Source of the DNA: an uncultured marine group I thaumarchaeote
GTDB taxonomy: Archaea; Thermoproteota; Nitrososphaeria; Nitrososphaerales; Nitrosopumilaceae
DNA: 40,677 bases
NCBI GenBank assembly: GCA_902514095.1
Contig: CABXPS010000004.1
Coordinates: 1 to 40,677 of the forward strand
Direction: 5' to 3'
The notes beneath the pieces were generated by a model. That model was given only the letters and a program-made list of their open reading frames with translations. It did no database searches and was not told the origin of the DNA. Each line of letters opens with the position of its first letter. Within the stretch, counting starts at the first letter, position 1. Below, piece after piece: positions 31,631-39,526 of this stretch. The position numbers and the translations under genes are program-made.

Positions 31631-32651
31631 GGCCTTTTGCCAATCTTAATGCATCTACTAATCCATCTGCATATCCTATACTCAGAATTGCAACTTCATC
31701 TTGTCCTTCTTCTAAAAATTTCTCTGCATCATTAACGTATAATTCTACATTTTCTAAAATTATTTCAAATTCTTTTTGATTTTTATAATATGGTATAATT
31801 TCTTCAAGTGCTTCTCTTACCATTGGAACATATTTTTTCATCATTTGATTTGAAATTTTTTCTGTTTTTTCAGAATTATCGAATGGCTCATCCATACATT
31901 GACCAAATAATTTAAGAGCATCTGACTCTGTAAAATGTAATCTTCCTGGAATAATTATCGTGTGAGGTGGTTTTCCAAAATTTATTTGTGCTAAAGTAGA
32001 TATTTTACCTGAAATTATTGTCTGATCTTTAAAACCAATTCTTGAAGCAACTATGACATAGCTTGAATCTGTGAGAACTTTTCTTCTTTGACCCTCTTCT
32101 GTTTCCAGTAATCCTTTTAGTGCATCATTAGGATCTAGAAAAAAATCTTTGTCTTGATTATATTCTAGTAATAATACTGTGTGGTTACCTTCTATAATAT
32201 TTTTATAAATTACATAATATGGAGTTGTTAGTGATTTCATTTCACTCATTATTGTTGCAATTCTTCCAACTTTGTAAAAATGCAAACCACATTCTCCTAT
32301 CATTGATGTAAGTGATGATGCTGCATGTATCGAACGTGTTTCTATTTTTAATTCAATTGCTCTTGTTCGTAATTCAATATGTGTTGTTGCAATATATGGA
32401 TCCCCATATGATAGCAGCACCACTTTTTTTTCTTTTGATTTTTCTAAAATTTCATTGCCATCTTCAACTAGCCATCTTTTTGCAGATATGAATTCACCTT
32501 TCATTGCTTTTTTAATTTTCTCTAAATCTGATTTTCCAATTGGACTAGTAAATTGTTCAAGGTATACAATATCTGCATTTGATATTATTTCTAATCCTTC
32601 AATTGGAATGGATTCAAATCCTGAAATTCCTAGACCTACAAATGATAACAT
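31614..32651 (-). CDS. dphB: Diphthine synthase fused to a DUF357 domain
   Basis: Residues 1-254 are DphB: MLSFVGLGISGFESIPIEGLEIISNADIVYLE, the SAM-binding LLSYGDPYIATTH, IHAASSLTSMIGECGLHFYKVGR, and HTIIIPGRLHFTE. It methylates the modified histidine of EF2 during diphthamide synthesis. Residues about 262-340 match DUF357, ending YVNDAEKFLEEGQDEVAILSIGYADGLVDALRLAKG. DUF357 is usually a separate short archaeal protein. At 345 residues the fusion exceeds the usual about 265. The gene follows lysK and overlaps its end by one base. Confidence 0.92.
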   Translation of the reverse strand: MLSFVGLGISGFESIPIEGLEIISNADIVYLEQFTSPIGKSDLEKIKKAMKGEFISAKRWLVEDGNEILEKSKEKKVVLLSYGDPYIATTHIELRTRAIELKIETRSIHAASSLTSMIGECGLHFYKVGRIATIMSEMKSLTTPYYVIYKNIIEGNHTVLLLEYNQDKDFFLDPNDALKGLLETEEGQRRKVLTDSSYVIVASRIGFKDQTIISGKISTLAQINFGKPPHTIIIPGRLHFTESDALKLFGQCMDEPFDNSEKTEKISNQMMKKYVPMVREALEEIIPYYKNQKEFEIILENVELYVNDAEKFLEEGQDEVAILSIGYADGLVDALRLAKGLEPKM

Positions 32652-33778
32652 TATTGCATTTTTTTATCATGAAGTCTTTTTAAATGCTGTAAAGTTGCTT
32701 TGAGAATTTCTATGCCTTTTAGGTACTCCTCAATTGAAACCTTTTCATCTATTGTATGAGCTTCATGTGGATCCCCTGGACCATATGTTACAACTGGAAT
32801 TTTCCATTGATTACCTAAAACATTCATGTCTCCTGTTCCTGTTTTTCTAATTAAAGTTGGTCTGGATTGTACTACTTGCATTGCTCCTAGTGTAAATGCT
32901 CTAACTAGTGCTGAATTATGTGGTGCCTCAAATGGCTCTGTTTCATCTAAAATTGAATAAAATGCTTCAACTTTTCTATTTTGAGATATTTCTTTAACTA
33001 ATGTTGCAATTTTTTGTTCAATAGTTTTACAATTCATGTTCACTGGAATTCTTATGTCGAAAAGAGTTTCACATTCTTTTGGTGTTATATTGTGACTTGT
33101 TCCACCTTTAATTTCAGTCATGGTTGCAGTTAACAACATTCCCTTGGTTTTTCCATCTTGATTTGCTTCTAATTTTTCTTTTAATTCTTTTACAAATATT
33201 ATTGATTCCTCAATGGCATTTTTTGAAAGCCATGGTGCACTTGCATGTGAACTATCTGGTACGCTGATTTTTAGATTAATTGCTAATCTACCTTTGTATG
33301 CAATTGTTACTTGTTTAATTCCACTTGGTTCTCCAAATACTGCATAATCAATATTCATTTCTTTTTTTACAATATTTTTAATTCCTATTGCATTTCCTTC
33401 TTCATCTACTGCCCCTACAAAAATTACTGTCCCTTGATTCTTTTCAATTGATGCTGCAGCAAATAACATTGCCATTAATGGTGCTTTTGCATCTGATGCT
33501 CCTCGACCATAAAGTGAATCTCCTTCTTTTCTAACTTTTACTTTTCCTGGAACCACATCCATGTGACCGCATAGCATTATTCGTGGAGATCCGGTTCCTT
33601 TTGTTGCAATAACATTCCCTACTTCGTCAATTTGTATATCTTCAAATCCTAAATCATCACATTTGTCTACCAAAAATTCTGCCATTGGTTTTTCACTGAG
33701 TGATGGTGTGTAGAGTCGAAGTGCTTTTTCTAGCATCTTTGTTGCAAACCTAGGGGTTACCGTAAAATGATTTTCCAT
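32651..33778 (-). CDS. lysK: [LysW]-lysine/ornithine hydrolase (M20 family)
   Basis: A 375-residue M20 metallopeptidase. Zinc ligands are H72 in LCGHMDVVPG, D96 in GRGASDAK and the E126-E127 pair in VDEEGNAIG. VFGEPSG and the late THTIDE-like AHTIDEKV are family features. It releases lysine, or ornithine in the arginine branch, from the LysW carrier. It begins one base after the lysX stop, within the hcs-lysW-lysX-lysK unit. Confidence 0.92.
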   Translation of the reverse strand: MENHFTVTPRFATKMLEKALRLYTPSLSEKPMAEFLVDKCDDLGFEDIQIDEVGNVIATKGTGSPRIMLCGHMDVVPGKVKVRKEGDSLYGRGASDAKAPLMAMLFAAASIEKNQGTVIFVGAVDEEGNAIGIKNIVKKEMNIDYAVFGEPSGIKQVTIAYKGRLAINLKISVPDSSHASAPWLSKNAIEESIIFVKELKEKLEANQDGKTKGMLLTATMTEIKGGTSHNITPKECETLFDIRIPVNMNCKTIEQKIATLVKEISQNRKVEAFYSILDETEPFEAPHNSALVRAFTLGAMQVVQSRPTLIRKTGTGDMNVLGNQWKIPVVTYGPGDPHEAHTIDEKVSIEEYLKGIEILKATLQHLKRLHDKKMQ

Positions 33779-33779
33779 T

Positions 33780-34622
33780 TTACTTTTCTACTTTTAGCGC
33801 GTAATCTAGCATTAGAGCTGGTATGTCTATTTCACATACTCTTACAGTATTTTTGTACTCTGTTGTATTGTTAACTTCATGAACGACAAGACCTTTTTCC
33901 TCACTTTCCATTAAATCTACACCTACAATGTCTCCTTGAACTGCATTTTTTGCTTTGATACACATTTCTTCCATTTCTTGTGTTACTTTACATGGTTCAG
34001 CAGTTCCACCTAATGCCATGTTTGTTTTCCAATGTTCAGAATTTCTGTAAATTGCAGCAACTATTTTCTCTCCTACCATGATTGCTCTAATGTCTCTTGG
34101 TGGTCTTTTTACAAATTCTTCCAAGTAATGAACTTGATAAATTGGATACATTGTTTCTCTACTTTCAATTATCCCTTCAGCTGAATCCTTATCATTTAAT
34201 TTTGAAATTAATCTTCCCCAACTACCTACTGTTGGTTTGATTACTTTTGGATATCCTTGTGTTTCTAATGCCTCTATTGCAGCATCTTTGGAAAATGCAA
34301 CTGTTGCATCTGGTGTTGGAACTCCAATTTTTTTTAATAACATATGTGTAAATAATTTATTTCCTGCAAACACTCCTGTGTTTAAACAATTGATTACTTT
34401 AACTCCTAATCCTTCTAGAGCTGCAGTTGAATGTAAATTTCTATAATAACTCACACATCGTTGAATAACCACTCCGTAATCTTCAGGTTTTTTTTCTAAA
34501 TCTAATGCTAATTTTTTACAATCTATCATCTGTATGTTGATATTCTTTTTTTTACCTGCTTCTAGCAGAGCTTTTTCTTCCCAACGTATGGAATCGTAAA
34601 GAATTGTAACATCTGGATTCAC
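33780..34622 (-). CDS. lysX: LysW-amino-acid ligase (LysX/ArgX, ATP-grasp)
   Basis: An ATP-grasp ligase of about 280 residues that attaches aminoadipate or glutamate to LysW. Typical segments are VIQRCVSYYRNLHSTAALEGLG, ATP-binding KPTVGSWGRLISKL, VKRPPRDIRAIMVG, and GVDLMESEEKGLVVHEVNNTTEYKNTVRV. The LysX/ArgX specificity loop cannot be assigned by eye. The GTG at 34622, overlapping the lysW stop as GTGA, is preferred to the TTG at 34631, because a 4-base overlap is usual for coupled genes. It fits directly after lysW. Confidence 0.9.
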   Translation of the reverse strand: MNPDVTILYDSIRWEEKALLEAGKKKNINIQMIDCKKLALDLEKKPEDYGVVIQRCVSYYRNLHSTAALEGLGVKVINCLNTGVFAGNKLFTHMLLKKIGVPTPDATVAFSKDAAIEALETQGYPKVIKPTVGSWGRLISKLNDKDSAEGIIESRETMYPIYQVHYLEEFVKRPPRDIRAIMVGEKIVAAIYRNSEHWKTNMALGGTAEPCKVTQEMEEMCIKAKNAVQGDIVGVDLMESEEKGLVVHEVNNTTEYKNTVRVCEIDIPALMLDYALKVEK

Positions 34623-34786
34623 TGTCCCCAATCCTCGCCAACTGTTTGAGCCGGCTTTAGATCGAAACCATCTGAACCTTTTGCTAATTCAAAACTTGCG
34701 CCGCATTCTGGACATGTTACAATTTCTCCCTCAAGTGCATCACTTGGTATGGAGATATCTGCATCACATTCTTCACATTTTGACAT
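34619..34786 (-). CDS. lysW: Amino-group carrier protein LysW, ending EDWGQ
   Basis: A 55-residue acidic carrier. The zinc site is C4-x2-C7 and C25-x2-C28 (CEEC, CPEC), and the C-terminus is TVGEDWGQ. LysW proteins normally end EDWGE, and the final glutamate's gamma-carboxyl holds the aminoadipate or glutamate substrate. Here the last sense codon is CAG (glutamine) before TGA. The reading was checked base by base at 34619-34633. It stands 22 bases after the homocitrate synthase gene. If the glutamine is real, the carrier residue is non-standard or modified after translation. Confidence 0.93.
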   Translation of the reverse strand: MSKCEECDADISIPSDALEGEIVTCPECGASFELAKGSDGFDLKPAQTVGEDWGQ

Positions 34787-34808: not shown

Positions 34809-35975
34809 TTATTTATCTTCAACAATCTTTTTTTCAAGTCTATCCTCAAGTGGAATTTCTATTAGATCCCCCATTCTTAGATTTTTTAGTCCTACTGCAA
34901 CAGCTTTTGCACCTACGTCATCTTTTTCTAATCCTAGTAATGACATTAGATAGGCCGCACCTGTTTTTCCAGCTAATTCTCCAAATACTATTCTTCTTCT
35001 ATTTCCTACAGCTCTTGGTGGTATTGGTTCATAGGCTGCTGGATTTTTGAGAATTGCTGCAAGATGTGTACCTGCTTTGTGTTTATATGCTGATGATCCT
35101 ACTATTGGTTTTGAATCATATGGTTTGATTGTTGTATAGTCTTCAATTAATCTAGATAAATCCAATAGCATATCTAATCTAAAATCATTTGGTGATTTGT
35201 ATAAGTAAGTTAGTGCTACTGCAACTTCTGCAAGTGGTGGTATACCTGTTCTTTCTCCAATTCCATCAATTGTTGTATGGATTTGATTAACTCCTGCATC
35301 ACATGCTGAAAATGCATTTGCTACTGCAAAACCAATATCATTATGAACATGTGCATCTAATGGAACATCTACAACTTCTCTAACTTTTTTTACAAAATTA
35401 TACATTCCAATTGGACGTAAAATCCCTACTGTATCTGGAAGACTAATTCTATCTACTCCTGCTTCTTCAATTGCTTTACATACTTTTAGTAAAAATTCTG
35501 GTTCTGTCCTACTTCCATCCTCTACTGTAAATCTTACTTTTAATCCATGAGATTTTGCATACTCTACAGTTCCTACTGCTCTTTCCAAAGCTTCTTCCCT
35601 AGAAATACGTAATTTGTCTTTTAGATGTATATCTGAAATTCCTAAATATGCTGCACACCATTTTGCATCACAGTCTAATGAAGTGTCTATATCTTCCTTA
35701 AGTGCACGTCCGTGAGATACAATATCTGCTGTTAGCCCTTGTTTGATAATTGTTTTAGTTGCTTCTTTGTGATCTTTTGATACTATTGGTGAAATCTCTA
35801 TTTGATCCACTCCAAAATAATCTAACATCCATGCAATCTGGATTCTTTGTTTATTTGTAAATGAAACACCTGGATGTTGTTCCCCTTCCCTTAGAGTACT
35901 ATCTAATACTCTGATCTTTTTTGGATTTTTTTCATATGCGTTATACATGTCTGCATAGTGATTCGGATCTTTCAT
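34809..35975 (-). CDS. Homocitrate synthase (isopropylmalate synthase superfamily)
   Basis: A 388-residue TIM-barrel acyltransferase. LDSTLREGEQHPGVSFTNKQRI (D25, R29, E30) provides the metal site and catalytic residues. HVHNDIGFAVANAFSACDAG gives the two metal histidines, and GIGERTGIPPLAEVAV is the conserved later block. The length and the neighbouring lysW point to homocitrate synthase, first step of the alpha-aminoadipate pathway; 2-isopropylmalate synthase would usually have a longer regulatory domain. A GATATAAAC box at 36001-36009 precedes it by about 30 bases, so it leads its own transcript. Confidence 0.88.
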   Translation of the reverse strand: MKDPNHYADMYNAYEKNPKKIRVLDSTLREGEQHPGVSFTNKQRIQIAWMLDYFGVDQIEISPIVSKDHKEATKTIIKQGLTADIVSHGRALKEDIDTSLDCDAKWCAAYLGISDIHLKDKLRISREEALERAVGTVEYAKSHGLKVRFTVEDGSRTEPEFLLKVCKAIEEAGVDRISLPDTVGILRPIGMYNFVKKVREVVDVPLDAHVHNDIGFAVANAFSACDAGVNQIHTTIDGIGERTGIPPLAEVAVALTYLYKSPNDFRLDMLLDLSRLIEDYTTIKPYDSKPIVGSSAYKHKAGTHLAAILKNPAAYEPIPPRAVGNRRRIVFGELAGKTGAAYLMSLLGLEKDDVGAKAVAVGLKNLRMGDLIEIPLEDRLEKKIVEDK

Positions 35976-36077: not shown

Positions 36078-36094
36078 AAAACGAAACTCGTTTT
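36078..36094. promoter_or_regulatory. Perfect palindrome between the Lrp gene and the homocitrate synthase promoter
   Basis: AAAACGA-AAC-TCGTTTT has perfect 7-base arms and a 3-base spacer. It ends at the Lrp stop codon and lies about 70 bases upstream of the homocitrate synthase TATA box. It could be an operator for the neighbouring Lrp protein or a hairpin near the 3' end of the Lrp message. Confidence 0.5.
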
Positions 36095-36513
36095 TAGATA
36101 ATTTTTCTTAAAATGATTACTGTATTGGTATCTACTACCCCTGTAATTTTTCTTAATGCATCTATGCTATTATTAATTTCTGTAATACTTGATGCACTCA
36201 TTATTGTTGTGATATCGTATTGCCCTGTAATTTCATAAACTGTTTTTACTCCATTTAATTTTGCAAGCTTTAAAGACACTTTGGATGTTTCTGTTGCAGA
36301 ATCCACTGAAACTAGTACTATTGCACTAGTAACATTTTCTTCTCCTAATTCTATTGTAAATTTATCAATTGTTTTACTGTCTACTAAATTTTTAACTCTC
36401 CTTCTAACTGCTGATTCTGAAAGTTTTAATTTTTTACCAATGTCTACAAATGATTCCCTGGAATCTTCTTTTAGATATCCGATAATTTTTTCATCTACTT
36501 TATCTTTATACAT
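36094..36513 (-). CDS. Lrp/AsnC-family transcriptional regulator, LysM-like
   Basis: A 139-residue regulator. An N-terminal winged helix (VDIGKKLKLSESAVRRRVKNLVDSKTIDKF) is followed by a RAM ligand-binding domain with VKTVYEITGQYDITTIMSAS. It lies in the lys gene cluster and overlaps lysJ by several bases. In Sulfolobus, LysM of this family controls the lysW-X-J-K genes in response to lysine; a similar role is inferred here. A perfect palindrome lies just after the gene. Confidence 0.92.
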   Translation of the reverse strand: MYKDKVDEKIIGYLKEDSRESFVDIGKKLKLSESAVRRRVKNLVDSKTIDKFTIELGEENVTSAIVLVSVDSATETSKVSLKLAKLNGVKTVYEITGQYDITTIMSASSITEINNSIDALRKITGVVDTNTVIILRKII

Positions 36514-37681
36514 TTCTTTTTTCTTCCTCCTTACCTATTACAACATCTAATGCATGTAAAACTTTTGTTACATCTTCTTCTTTAATCACTAATGGTGGCA
36601 ATATTCTGAGAATGTTTCTTCCTGAGTATAACATCAAAACACCTTCTTCAATTAACCCCATCAAAATATCTTTGACTTCAAATTTCATTTCAATTCCAAT
36701 CATTAGGCCTTTTCCTCTAATTTCTCTAATCATTGTATGTTTTTCTTTTAGTTTTTCTAAACCTTCTTTAAAAACTTCTCCCATTTTTTTAGAATTTTCA
36801 ATTAACCCATCCTCTGTTATTGATGTTAGTGCTGCAATTCCAGCTGCACATGATATTGGATTTCCACCAAATGTTGATGAATGTTCTCCTTTACTTATTG
36901 CTGCTAAAATATCTGGTCTAACTAATGTTGCTCCCATTGGTACTCCGCCTGCAATTCCTTTTGCAAGACATAAAATATCTGGTACCGTATTCCAATGTTC
37001 ACCTGCCCATAATCGACCAGTTCTTCCTAATCCTGCTTGAATTTCGTCAAAAATTAATAAAATTCCTTTTTCATTACATAGTTTTCTAACTTCTTGTAAG
37101 AATCCATCTGGTGCAACAATTATTCCACTTTCTCCTTGAATAGGTTCTAAAATTACGAAAGCTGTATCTTCATCAATTACGGAACGAAGTGAATCCATGT
37201 CTCCAAATGAAGCAAAAGAAACTTTTTCAACTAACGGTGCAAATGCTTTTTTGTATTTTGGATTAAATGTTAATGATAATGCTCCAAATGATTTTCCATG
37301 GTACGATCCTTTCATTGCAACCATTCCTTTCTTTCCTGTAAACTTTCTTGCAAATTTCATTGCAGCTTCAATAGCTTCTGCCCCACTATTGTTAAGATGC
37401 ACTTGTGTTAATCCTTCTGGAGATATTTCAATTAATTTTTTCAAAAATTCTTCTCGTGTTTTATTGTATAACGAACTATGCACTGTAATTATTTTATCAA
37501 TTTGTTCTTTGATTGCATTGTTAACTCTTTGATTTTGATGTCCAACTAATGCTACGCCATATCCTCCCATACAATCGATGTATTCTTTTCCTTCTGTATC
37601 CCAAACATGAGCTCCTACGCCTTTTTCAATTGTAACTGGGAATCTCTGATAGAGATTACCCATGTGTTGATCTTCACTCAT
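36506..37681 (-). CDS. lysJ: [LysW]-aminoadipate semialdehyde/glutamate semialdehyde aminotransferase
   Basis: A class III aminotransferase of 391 residues from the ATG at 37681. This start overlaps lysZ by 8 bases; an in-frame TTG six bases earlier is less likely. The PLP lysine is in LAKGIAGGVPMG (K241 in this numbering), the PLP-ring aspartate is in LIFDEIQAGLGRTG, and NSGAEAIEAAMK is the phosphate loop. It transaminates the LysW-bound semialdehyde with glutamate, in lysine or arginine synthesis. It overlaps both its neighbours, indicating tight co-translation. Confidence 0.92.
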   Translation of the reverse strand: MSEDQHMGNLYQRFPVTIEKGVGAHVWDTEGKEYIDCMGGYGVALVGHQNQRVNNAIKEQIDKIITVHSSLYNKTREEFLKKLIEISPEGLTQVHLNNSGAEAIEAAMKFARKFTGKKGMVAMKGSYHGKSFGALSLTFNPKYKKAFAPLVEKVSFASFGDMDSLRSVIDEDTAFVILEPIQGESGIIVAPDGFLQEVRKLCNEKGILLIFDEIQAGLGRTGRLWAGEHWNTVPDILCLAKGIAGGVPMGATLVRPDILAAISKGEHSSTFGGNPISCAAGIAALTSITEDGLIENSKKMGEVFKEGLEKLKEKHTMIREIRGKGLMIGIEMKFEVKDILMGLIEEGVLMLYSGRNILRILPPLVIKEEDVTKVLHALDVVIGKEEEKRNV

Positions 37682-38477
37682 GTTCAATCACCGTACAATT
37701 ATCCTGTGAAATTGCTGAAGAAATAGGGTTTTCTTTCTGACCATTTGCAATAAAAGCTTGTTTCACACCCATATCAAGTGCTTCTGTGGAAGCCAAAATC
37801 TTTTTTTCCATACCTGGACCTATTTTTGGTCTAATTTCTTTTGCTTCTACCAATGTCAATTTTGGTACCACTTTATCATCCATTAAAAGCCCATCTACAT
37901 TTGTAATGAATAATACCTTGTCACTTCCTACACTTCCTGCTACATATGCTGCAGCCCTATCTCCATCTACATTAAGAAATTCTGATTCCTCACTAATTGC
38001 TATTGGTGAAATTACAGGTGTTAGTCCTTGCTTGAGTAATGATTTGATAAATTCTGAATTTACGTTTTTAATTTTACCTGTATATCCTCCATCAATTGCT
38101 TGTTTTCTACCCTTTTCATTTACAATCAATAGTTTCTTTTTCCTGTCTGCTTCTATGACTTTGGCATCTACTCCTGATAATCCAATTGCATTAATTCCAT
38201 TTTTTTGTAACATTTGAACAATTGTCTTATTTATTCTACCTGACATAACCATTGTAAAAATTTCTGCAGTTTCTTTATCCGTGTATCGACTTTTAATTCC
38301 ACTTGGTGATGTTACAAATTTTGGTTCTTTTCCTAATTGTTTACAAACTTTTGTAACTTCTTTTCCTCCACCATGAACTATGATGATGCCTTCTGATTCT
38401 GCAGTTTTTTTAATGTCTGAAATTGTGGATGGATGTAAATCATCTACTACACTTCCACCAATTTTAATTGTGATCAT
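37674..38477 (-). CDS. lysZ: [LysW]-aminoadipate/glutamate kinase
   Basis: A 267-residue amino-acid kinase of the ArgB family. ITIKIGGSVVD at the start and VHGGGKEVTKVC are the ATP- and substrate-binding glycine motifs. NVDGDRAAAYVAGSVGSDKVLFITNVDGLL is the central block, and GPGMEKKILASTEALDMGVKQAFI the C-terminal one. It phosphorylates the side-chain carboxyl of LysW-bound aminoadipate or glutamate. It starts 2 bases after lysY stops and precedes lysJ. Confidence 0.92.
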   Translation of the reverse strand: MITIKIGGSVVDDLHPSTISDIKKTAESEGIIIVHGGGKEVTKVCKQLGKEPKFVTSPSGIKSRYTDKETAEIFTMVMSGRINKTIVQMLQKNGINAIGLSGVDAKVIEADRKKKLLIVNEKGRKQAIDGGYTGKIKNVNSEFIKSLLKQGLTPVISPIAISEESEFLNVDGDRAAAYVAGSVGSDKVLFITNVDGLLMDDKVVPKLTLVEAKEIRPKIGPGMEKKILASTEALDMGVKQAFIANGQKENPISSAISQDNCTVIEHE

Positions 38478-38479
38478 TT

Positions 38480-39526
38480 CTAAACCGGAGTTAGCGGTGT
38501 ATATCTTAGTCCGCTCATTTCATCAAAACCACACATGACATTCATGTTTTGAATAGCAGAACCTGCTGCACCTTTCATTAAATTATCTGATGCTGATAAA
38601 GAAATTAGTCTATTGTTATCTTCATCCAAATCAAATCCAATATCACAAAAGTTTGAACCCACTAAGAATTTTGGATCTGGGAATTTGTACAATCCTTTTT
38701 TATCTCTAATTAGTCTAACAAATTTTTCATCGCCATATGCTTGACGATATATTTTCCATAATTCTTTTTCTTCGATATCTTTTTTCATAAATGTATGATT
38801 TGTACACAAAATACCTCTGACAACATCTACTGCATGTGGGCTCATTGAAACACGGATTTTTTTCCCTGCAATTTCACTTAATTCCTGTTCAATTTCACCT
38901 GTGTGTCTATGTTTTGCTGGTTTGTATGGTCTGATAACTCCTGCACGCATTGCATGTGCTGTTCCAGAACCAGAACCGGCACCAGATGATCCGATTTTTG
39001 AATCTACAATTATGTGATCCGTATCTATGATGTCATTTTTAATTAATGGTGCAAGTGCTAGTGTTGATGTAACTGCCATACAACCTGGGCATGAGACGAG
39101 TTGTGCTTTTTTAATTTCTTCTCTATGTAATTCTGGAACTCCAAAAACTGACTTTGGTAAATAATCTGGATGTGGGTGTTTCCAACCGTACCATTTGTCA
39201 TATGCTTCTTGTTGATGTAATCTGTAATCTGCACTCAAATCAATTACTTTGATGCCTCTATCATAGAGTGCTTTTACAATTTCAGTAGCAGTTCCATGTG
39301 GTACTGCTGTAAAGACCACATCGCATTGATCCGTTAATTTATCATAATCTAATTCTGAAAAAGTAAGATCTGTAAATCCTTTCAAACTAGGCTGAACTCT
39401 GTGTAAATATTCTCCAACATGTTGTCTTGATGTTACCATGCTAATTTCAACATCTGGGTGGTTGACAAGAAGACGTAGTGTTTCTCCTCCTACATAACCT
39501 GATGCTCCTACTACTCCTACTTTCAT
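38480..39526 (-). CDS. lysY: [LysW]-aminoadipate/glutamate phosphate reductase
   Basis: A 348-residue ArgC-like dehydrogenase. GASGYVGGETLRLL binds NADP. The catalytic cysteine is C149 in VSCPGCMAVTS, where the common ArgC form reads NPGCYAT. GSSGAGSGSGTAHAM and HRHTGEIEQEL follow, along with the SMSPHAVDVVRGILCTNH strand. It reduces the LysW-bound acyl phosphate to the semialdehyde. It heads the lysY-lysZ-lysJ-regulator transcript; a TATA-like box at 39548-39557 is upstream. Confidence 0.93.
   Translation of the reverse strand: MKVGVVGASGYVGGETLRLLVNHPDVEISMVTSRQHVGEYLHRVQPSLKGFTDLTFSELDYDKLTDQCDVVFTAVPHGTATEIVKALYDRGIKVIDLSADYRLHQQEAYDKWYGWKHPHPDYLPKSVFGVPELHREEIKKAQLVSCPGCMAVTSTLALAPLIKNDIIDTDHIIVDSKIGSSGAGSGSGTAHAMRAGVIRPYKPAKHRHTGEIEQELSEIAGKKIRVSMSPHAVDVVRGILCTNHTFMKKDIEEKELWKIYRQAYGDEKFVRLIRDKKGLYKFPDPKFLVGSNFCDIGFDLDEDNNRLISLSASDNLMKGAAGSAIQNMNVMCGFDEMSGLRYTPLTPV

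Follow-up and report, generated by a model that had tools for sequence, protein, structure and literature searches.

Many archaeal genomes encode the amino-group carrier protein LysW with a terminal glutamine

Background

LysW is the carrier of lysine and arginine precursors, and its terminal glutamate is regarded as the residue central to the chemistry of the system. The closest described systems are the LysW/ArgW carriers of Thermus, Sulfolobus, Thermococcus and Natrinema. In alignments, the LysW relatives of solved structure (3vpb, 3wwl and 5k2m) end in EDWGE, and so does Natrinema ArgW according to the accessible parts of PMC10433800. The same parts state that the E54A variant of Natrinema ArgW is not functional, that its terminal glutamate is crucial for arginine synthesis, and that glutamate was found attached to Glu54.

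Here we describe a lysW gene in a 40,677-nucleotide stretch of DNA from an uncultured marine thaumarchaeote (the whole stretch is called the window below). Its product resembles the described carriers in length, zinc ribbon and EDWG tail, and its operon resembles theirs in encoding LysX, LysZ, LysY, LysJ and LysK. Unlike these carriers, the window LysW ends in EDWGQ, and many archaea, including marine ammonia oxidizers, turn out to encode this glutamine. If a glutamine stands where attachment needs a glutamate, either conversion to glutamate comes first or the chemistry of attachment departs from the textbook.

Gene cluster and C-terminus of LysW

The genes for LysY, LysZ, LysJ, a LysM-like regulator, a synthase-like protein, LysW, LysX and LysK form one cluster, all on the minus strand (Table 1). 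This agrees with the original prediction, in which the operon around lysW had been called intact. Relatives of the window LysX in the PDB are 3vpd, 1uc8, 5k2m and 3vpb. The lysK product matches Peptidase_M20 in Pfam and reaches 279.4 bits with PRK04443 ([LysW]-lysine hydrolase), below the cut-off of 363. The synthase-like gene scores 417 bits with PRK00915.1-2, also below the cut-off (517), and stays under the cut-offs of both the homocitrate synthase and the 2-isopropylmalate synthase models.

Table 1. Features of the lysine gene cluster in the window
Feature	Coordinates	Strand	Evidence
lysK, M20 hydrolase, expected to free the product from LysW; candidate deamidase	32651..33778	-	TIGR01902 278.9 bits, cut-off 163.1
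lysX, ATP-grasp ligase, GTG start over the lysW stop	33780..34622	-	TIGR02144 LysX_arch 332.5 bits, cut-off 275.6
lysW, amino-group carrier protein, 55 aa, tail EDWGQ	34619..34786	-	ORF and family models
CAG, terminal Gln codon (Glu in characterised LysW)	34622..34624	-	direct reading
homocitrate/isopropylmalate synthase-like gene, upstream of lysW	34809..35975	-	TIGR02146 374 bits, below cut-off 413.6
LysM-like Lrp/AsnC regulator	36094..36513	-	NF040947 178.7 bits, just below cut-off 180
lysJ-like aminotransferase	36506..37687	-	TIGR00707 437 bits, cut-off 410; LysJ equivalogs below their cut-offs
lysZ kinase	37674..38477	-	NF010662 [LysW]-aminoadipate/[LysW]-glutamate kinase 309 bits, cut-off 194
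lysY reductase	38480..39526	-	TIGR01850 argC 418.8 bits, cut-off 233.6

The lysW frame has 55 codons (translation MSKCEECDADISIPSDALEGEIVTCPECGASFELAKGSDGFDLKPAQTVGEDWGQ) and closes on the minus strand with GGC GAG GAT TGG GGA CAG TGA. The TGA occupies positions 34621-34619 and overlaps the GTG start of lysX (34622-34620) as GTGA. The tryptic C-terminal peptide of the protein is ...GSDGFDLKPAQTVGEDWGQ. The carrier residue is encoded as glutamine, just as had been predicted, and the four zinc-type cysteines and the EDWG motif said to be kept are both present. These cysteines, C4, C7, C25 and C28 in the numbering of the first row, form two CxxC knuckles and are invariant in a 12-row LysW alignment that includes the window. 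The protein scores above the cut-offs of NF041070 carrier_LysW_Arch (89.2 bits, cut-off 75) and PF21344 (46.5 bits, cut-off 27). With TIGR01206, the lysW equivalog, it reaches 31.3 bits against a cut-off of 53.2; the E-ended paralogue from the same genome, described below, also fails this model (35.9 bits). What the window LysW lacks is the encoded C-terminal glutamate of EDWGE. Judged by its sequence, it is a Gln-ended variant of the LysW/ArgW family and not a canonical member.

A LysW match was found in 90 of the 95 genomes of the genus scan, and 18 genomes, the window's own included, are 100% identical to the window LysW over all 55 residues. Together with the census of the order and the finding of Q in 151 of 246 genes (see below), these identical genomes exclude a sequencing or assembly error, the weakness that the original prediction had itself named.

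Distribution of the terminal glutamine

Using LysW queries cut short of the tail, and dropping repeats of the same last 120 bases, we obtained 246 distinct lysW genes from 263 loci. The tail is EDWGQ in 151 genes and EDWGE in 95, with no other ending. Among the 115 genes from loci that were not chosen by their end pattern, 67 end in EDWGQ, 48 in EDWGE and none otherwise; the remaining loci had been selected in part with a peptide pattern that names E or Q as the last residue, or with the Q pattern. A motif-based count of 217 lysW genes (218 before one regex match that was not LysW was removed) gave 129, 88 and 0, respectively. This comparison of C-termini across relatives shows that the glutamine is a widespread and recurrent state, beyond what the reading of a single window could show.

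The EDWG ahead of the terminal residue is present in all 246 genes, with no difference between Q and E genes. In the Q lineages, the substrate might conceivably be attached to the Glu or Asp of this motif, both of which are found in 246 of 246 genes. However, the two residues are equally constant in E genes, attachment there would not predict that only E or Q stands at the end, and the carrier would have to reach into the pathway enzymes in another way. Moreover, the terminal Glu is the residue used in Natrinema, according to the accessible parts of PMC10433800. We regard attachment within EDWG as very improbable.

A scan of the order detected the EDWGQ-stop pattern, GARGAYTGGGGNCARTRR, in 201 of 300 genomes and its reversed control in none of the 300. 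The TRR of this pattern also admits TGG; one listed match is of that kind (G101:C1:1952672, next codon TGG) and was discarded as chance. Within the order, the Q pattern is confined to families f1, f2 and f8, being found in none of the other 14 families. These three are probably the ammonia-oxidizer families Nitrosopumilaceae, Nitrosocaldaceae and Nitrososphaeraceae. The EDWGE-stop pattern was found in 235 of 300 genomes (reversed control, 1 of 300). The Q pattern occurs without the E pattern in 52 of the 300 genomes (5 in f1 and 47 in f8), some of which are incomplete. Reading loci individually confirmed that the lysW of the lysine cluster ends in EDWGQ across many genera of the window's family, and also in two further families. 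Some members of the Q families have a lys-type carrier with an E end (G066, G067, G141, G080 and records L160, L177 and L206).

The 151 Q genes use CAG (125) or CAA (26) as the terminal codon and TGA (110), TAA (22) or TAG (19) as the stop. All four glycine codons occur before the glutamine. Since the glutamine is kept through both of its codons and all three stops, selection acts on the residue and not on the overlap with lysX. A constraint from the overlapping lysX frame is ruled out by the same variation, with Q persisting beside TAA and TAG. These data also bear on whether the Gln codon could be partly read as Glu. Archaea make Gln-tRNA by transamidation, and incompletely amidated Glu-tRNAGln, for example, might yield enough LysW-Glu for a recycled carrier, which needs few active molecules. 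However, CAG and CAA would then be mistranslated proteome-wide, and a local recoding signal is hard to reconcile with the variation of Gly codon, Gln codon and stop around the site. Such misreading is hardly credible.

In a scan of the phylum, the Q pattern was found in 87 of 398 genomes and its reversed control in 3 of 398. Outside the order, 15 genomes have a Q-pattern match, and 14 of these matches lie in a LysW gene (8 in f25, 4 in f30, and one each in f48 and f51). The fifteenth, in G366, is a chance match that is not LysW; the LysW of this genome ends in E. In six f25 g72 genomes, a LysW search detected a single clear LysW each, and a further match at E = 2.15 in one of them was read as noise. 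The single-contig genomes G353 and G456 have one LysW match each, Q-ended in both. All eight f25 clusters contain two LysX-type ligases. Our reading of this distribution is that Q probably had several independent origins. In six f25 loci (L249-L253 and L263), the Q-ended LysW carries His for the first Cys of the second zinc knuckle (HEDCG/HEECG). In G456 (L260, 2601-9354), a Q-ended LysW and a LysX (TIGR02144, 315.9 bits) lie near carbamoyl-phosphate synthase genes, and no lysZ, lysY, lysJ or lysK was found in the 17 kb read around this LysW.

The Gln-ended LysW is thus real and widespread and, as far as literature searches reach, unreported. A search of the running text of 5.39 million open-access papers found no mention of the string EDWGQ and no paper that names LysW together with Nitrosocosmicus. 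The available portions of PMC10433800, PMC6038301, PMC4745020 and PMC9303977 contain no mention of a Gln end of LysW.

Carrier and ligase pairs

The genome of the window, 71% complete and in 53 contigs, contains a second LysW on another contig (L002, G000:C24, 561-2802). It ends in EDWGE and sits between argG (TIGR00032, 494 bits, cut-off 268) and the second ligase of the genome, a paralogous ArgX-like protein (TIGR02144 LysX_arch, 292.8 bits, cut-off 275.6). In several relatives, two carrier-ligase pairs, separated by about 6-8 kb, flank lysY, lysZ and lysJ genes that they share. Because argG lies beside the E pair and a homocitrate-type synthase beside the Q pair, the former is probably the arginine pair and the latter the lysine pair. 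A published metabolic model, in the parts accessible, places a LysW and an ArgX from N. maritimus on the arginine side (PMC6038301).

All four combinations of lys-type and arg-type ends occur among relatives. Lys-type Q with arg-type E is found in Nitrosopumilus-type genomes and in Nitrosotenuis chungbukensis MY2 (L166). The reciprocal state, lys-type E with arg-type Q, is found in Nitrososphaerales TH703, TH526, TH1920 and others (L138, L140, L147, L152, L153 and L156). Both carriers end in Q in G150 and G176 (single contigs, 99% completeness), G116, G233, G267, G177 and G311; both end in E in G066, G067, G141 and G080, as do the carriers read in families that lack the Q pattern. In addition, G101, G135 and G143 (single contigs, 99%) have only one LysW match, which is Q-ended, beside two ligases. 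In G101, argG overlaps argX directly, with no lysW between them (L087, 1267-3328), which means that one Q carrier must serve two ligases. We take G101, G135 and G143 to be Nitrosocosmicus-like, and G150 and G176 to be Nitrososphaera-like. In the Nitrosocaldus-like G095, lysW(Q)-lysX-lysK lies about 150 kb from lysW(E)-argX-lysY-lysZ-lysJ-synthase (L092/L093).

The E-ended paralogue raises the possibility that LysW-Gln is no carrier at all but a scaffold, a regulator or a relic, and that both branches depend on the E-ended LysW next to argG. In principle, this LysW could serve LysX in the window genome. G306 provides a possible parallel: no lys-type lysW was found between its synthase gene and lysX, where low-complexity repeats lie instead (L112), while lysX and lysK are open, and therefore its E carrier presumably serves both branches. 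However, the scan for the EDWGE-stop pattern found none in G101, G135, G143, G150 and G176, all of which keep two ligases. If these organisms are prototrophic, five single-contig genomes with only EDWGQ carriers mean that the Gln-ended carrier must work. The reciprocal lineage, in which it is the arg-type carrier that ends in Q, and the identity of the EDWG motif in Q and E genes also speak against this explanation, which we find distinctly improbable. The original prediction had considered a second canonical LysW that alone serves the pathway. A second LysW ending in E does exist in the window genome, but the Q-only relatives rule it out as the general answer.

Two enzymes of the pathway appear to be common to both branches. 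LysK and LysY each have one match in 19 of 20 genomes, with a distant second LysK in G095 and a distant second LysY in G103, and thus both branches, and E and Q carriers alike, would share these enzymes.

Comparison of the ligases

E and Q interchange on both paralogues. At least 7 changes are required on the LysX tree, which has 114 rows, and at least 2 on the ArgX tree, which has 78; these are rough minima from quick trees with many open forks, whose starred branches alone force 3 (Q, LysX tree) and 1 (ArgX tree). Fragments shorter than 255 aa and duplicates were left out, and near-identical rows with the same label were dropped (150 to 114 rows for LysX, 85 to 78 for ArgX). The Q arg-type carriers of G177 and G311 add to the changes on the ArgX tree, from which they are missing because no ArgX lies beside these carriers in the stretches read.

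LysX itself is little changed. GSWGR, the motif that recognizes EDWGE, is present in 150 of 150 LysX rows. Screens by group, by near relative and by nearest Q relative found no LysX column that changes in all E/Q switches, and the differences from the first two were read as lineage effects, not as ligase adaptation to Gln. ArgX has nine positions that differ between Q and E, but only seven rows are on the Q side, all from f8 by their family labels. In the nearest-Q-relative screen, nine LysX columns changed in at least three of six E groups, none of them involving the Nitrosopumilus switches. One of these, column 137 (L001 row), lies just after GSWGR and changes from I to V in four of the six E groups (every row in three groups, but a single row out of six in the fourth). 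The E rows of Nitrosopumilus and f3 keep I, and ArgX mostly has V at the matching column with Q and E carriers alike; for these reasons we read the change as probably unrelated to the carrier end and possibly due to chance, yet as a lead.

These comparisons are relevant to the question of whether the glutamine might be used as such. Two forms of such use can be considered. First, LysX and ArgX of the Q lineages could use the alpha-carboxyl, forming an ordinary Gln-aminoadipate peptide bond for which the side chain would be irrelevant. An alpha-carboxyl is present on every terminal residue. LysX belongs to the RimK-like ATP-grasp ligases (RimK, CofF, MptN), with 286 bits to TIGR00768 (cut-off 143.4), although the CofF, MptN and S6-ligase models stay below their cut-offs on the window LysX; the NCBIfam names in this family include alpha-L-glutamate ligases, that is, alpha-linked ligation. 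LysK is an M20 hydrolase, and that family includes carboxypeptidases. However, ends that are only E or Q are predicted by use of the gamma-carbonyl and not by use of the alpha-carboxyl, with which other residues would be expected; none occurs in 246 genes. In mixed E/Q genomes, the LysY and LysK that have a single match would need to handle both linkages, and no LysX change cleanly tracks Q. We give this switch a small chance.

Second, LysX could exchange the amide: LysW-Gln, phosphate and ADP would yield a gamma-acyl phosphate and NH3, aminoadipate would attack, and later cycles would run on LysW-Glu. Analogous partial reactions are known from glutamine synthetase. Such an exchange would explain the absence of a separate deamidase, and it fits both the interchange of E and Q on the two paralogues and the little-changed ligase. 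On the other hand, we know of no ATP-grasp ligase with an exchange of this type; we consider it improbable. Taken together, the idea that LysX works without a free gamma-carboxyl, through amide exchange or a switch to the alpha-carboxyl, is an unlikely but sizeable possibility. To our knowledge, direct linkage chemistry on glutamine is known from no amino-group carrier.

Possible maturation of LysW

We favor the possibility, with a rough probability of 60%, that the Gln end masks a Glu and that each carrier molecule undergoes a single deamidation, with LysK as the candidate enzyme. This is suggested by the restriction of ends to E and Q, their interchange, the Q-only genomes, the little-changed LysX, the shared LysK and LysY and the precedent of Pup-Gln discussed below. 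The gamma-carbonyl is probably still the site used, in which case the amide must be removed or exchanged. The original prediction had offered three mechanisms: use of another carboxyl, prior deamidation and transamidation-like chemistry in LysX. Deamidation fits best, and the other two are less likely.

The following pathway can be proposed. LysW would be made as inactive LysW-Gln, whose side-chain amide would be hydrolyzed once to give LysW-Glu. LysX would then join alpha-aminoadipate to the gamma-carboxyl of LysW-Glu, LysZ, LysY and LysJ would process the carrier-bound substrate, and LysK would free lysine and regenerate LysW-Glu. Because the carrier would be recycled, one deamidation per LysW molecule would suffice. 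LysK may be the likeliest LysW-Gln deamidase, since the amide in LysW-Gln is of the gamma-glutamyl type on which LysK acts, with NH3 standing where lysine normally does; LysK is a candidate on these chemical grounds. CheD is a known protein-glutamine deamidase, and we considered it as well. Among 18 genomes searched, CheD is present in five and has no match in 13, ten of which have a Q carrier (G001, G003, G010, G101, G135, G143, G187, G346, G353 and the incomplete G000), and this absence rules it out as a universal deamidase. Among the neighboring genes read in the window and in the loci of relatives, no candidate for a dedicated deamidase was found beyond the pathway genes.

The long retention of Q and E on separate Nitrosopumilus paralogues suggests a purpose that deamidation before use leaves unexplained. 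Delayed activation of the carrier, or separation of the two branches, would be guesses.

In our judgement, the Gln-ended proteins represent a variant form of the LysW system, in whose current description either a step of maturation or a piece of chemistry is missing. If the glutamine is deamidated, there would be an unrecognized activation, with a pro-carrier and a deamidase. If it is not, the ligation chemistry would be unrecognized, and a protein-borne pathway widespread in ammonia-oxidizing archaea would depend on an unfamiliar kind of linkage. Metabolic models in which these LysW proteins count as carriers ready for use may lack a step.

Relation to known systems

A precedent for a carrier of this kind may be Pup. 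In some actinobacteria, Pup is encoded with a C-terminal Gln, and Dop both deamidates Pup-Gln and cleaves the conjugate, according to the accessible parts of PMC8599861. Pup-Gln, like the LysW described here, is a small protein with an encoded C-terminal Gln where ligation needs Glu. Dop, a conjugate hydrolase, doubles as the deamidase, and LysK may do likewise by analogy. The two proteins show no sign of homology: the only Pfam match of LysW at 1e-5 is the PF21344 zinc ribbon. Pup is conjugated to proteins, whereas LysW carries metabolites. The likeness is therefore one of logic and not of descent. In LysW, deamidation of the terminal Gln before use is suggested by the exclusive occurrence of E and Q and by the Q-only genomes, and it would extend the Pup-Gln logic to a second, unrelated protein.
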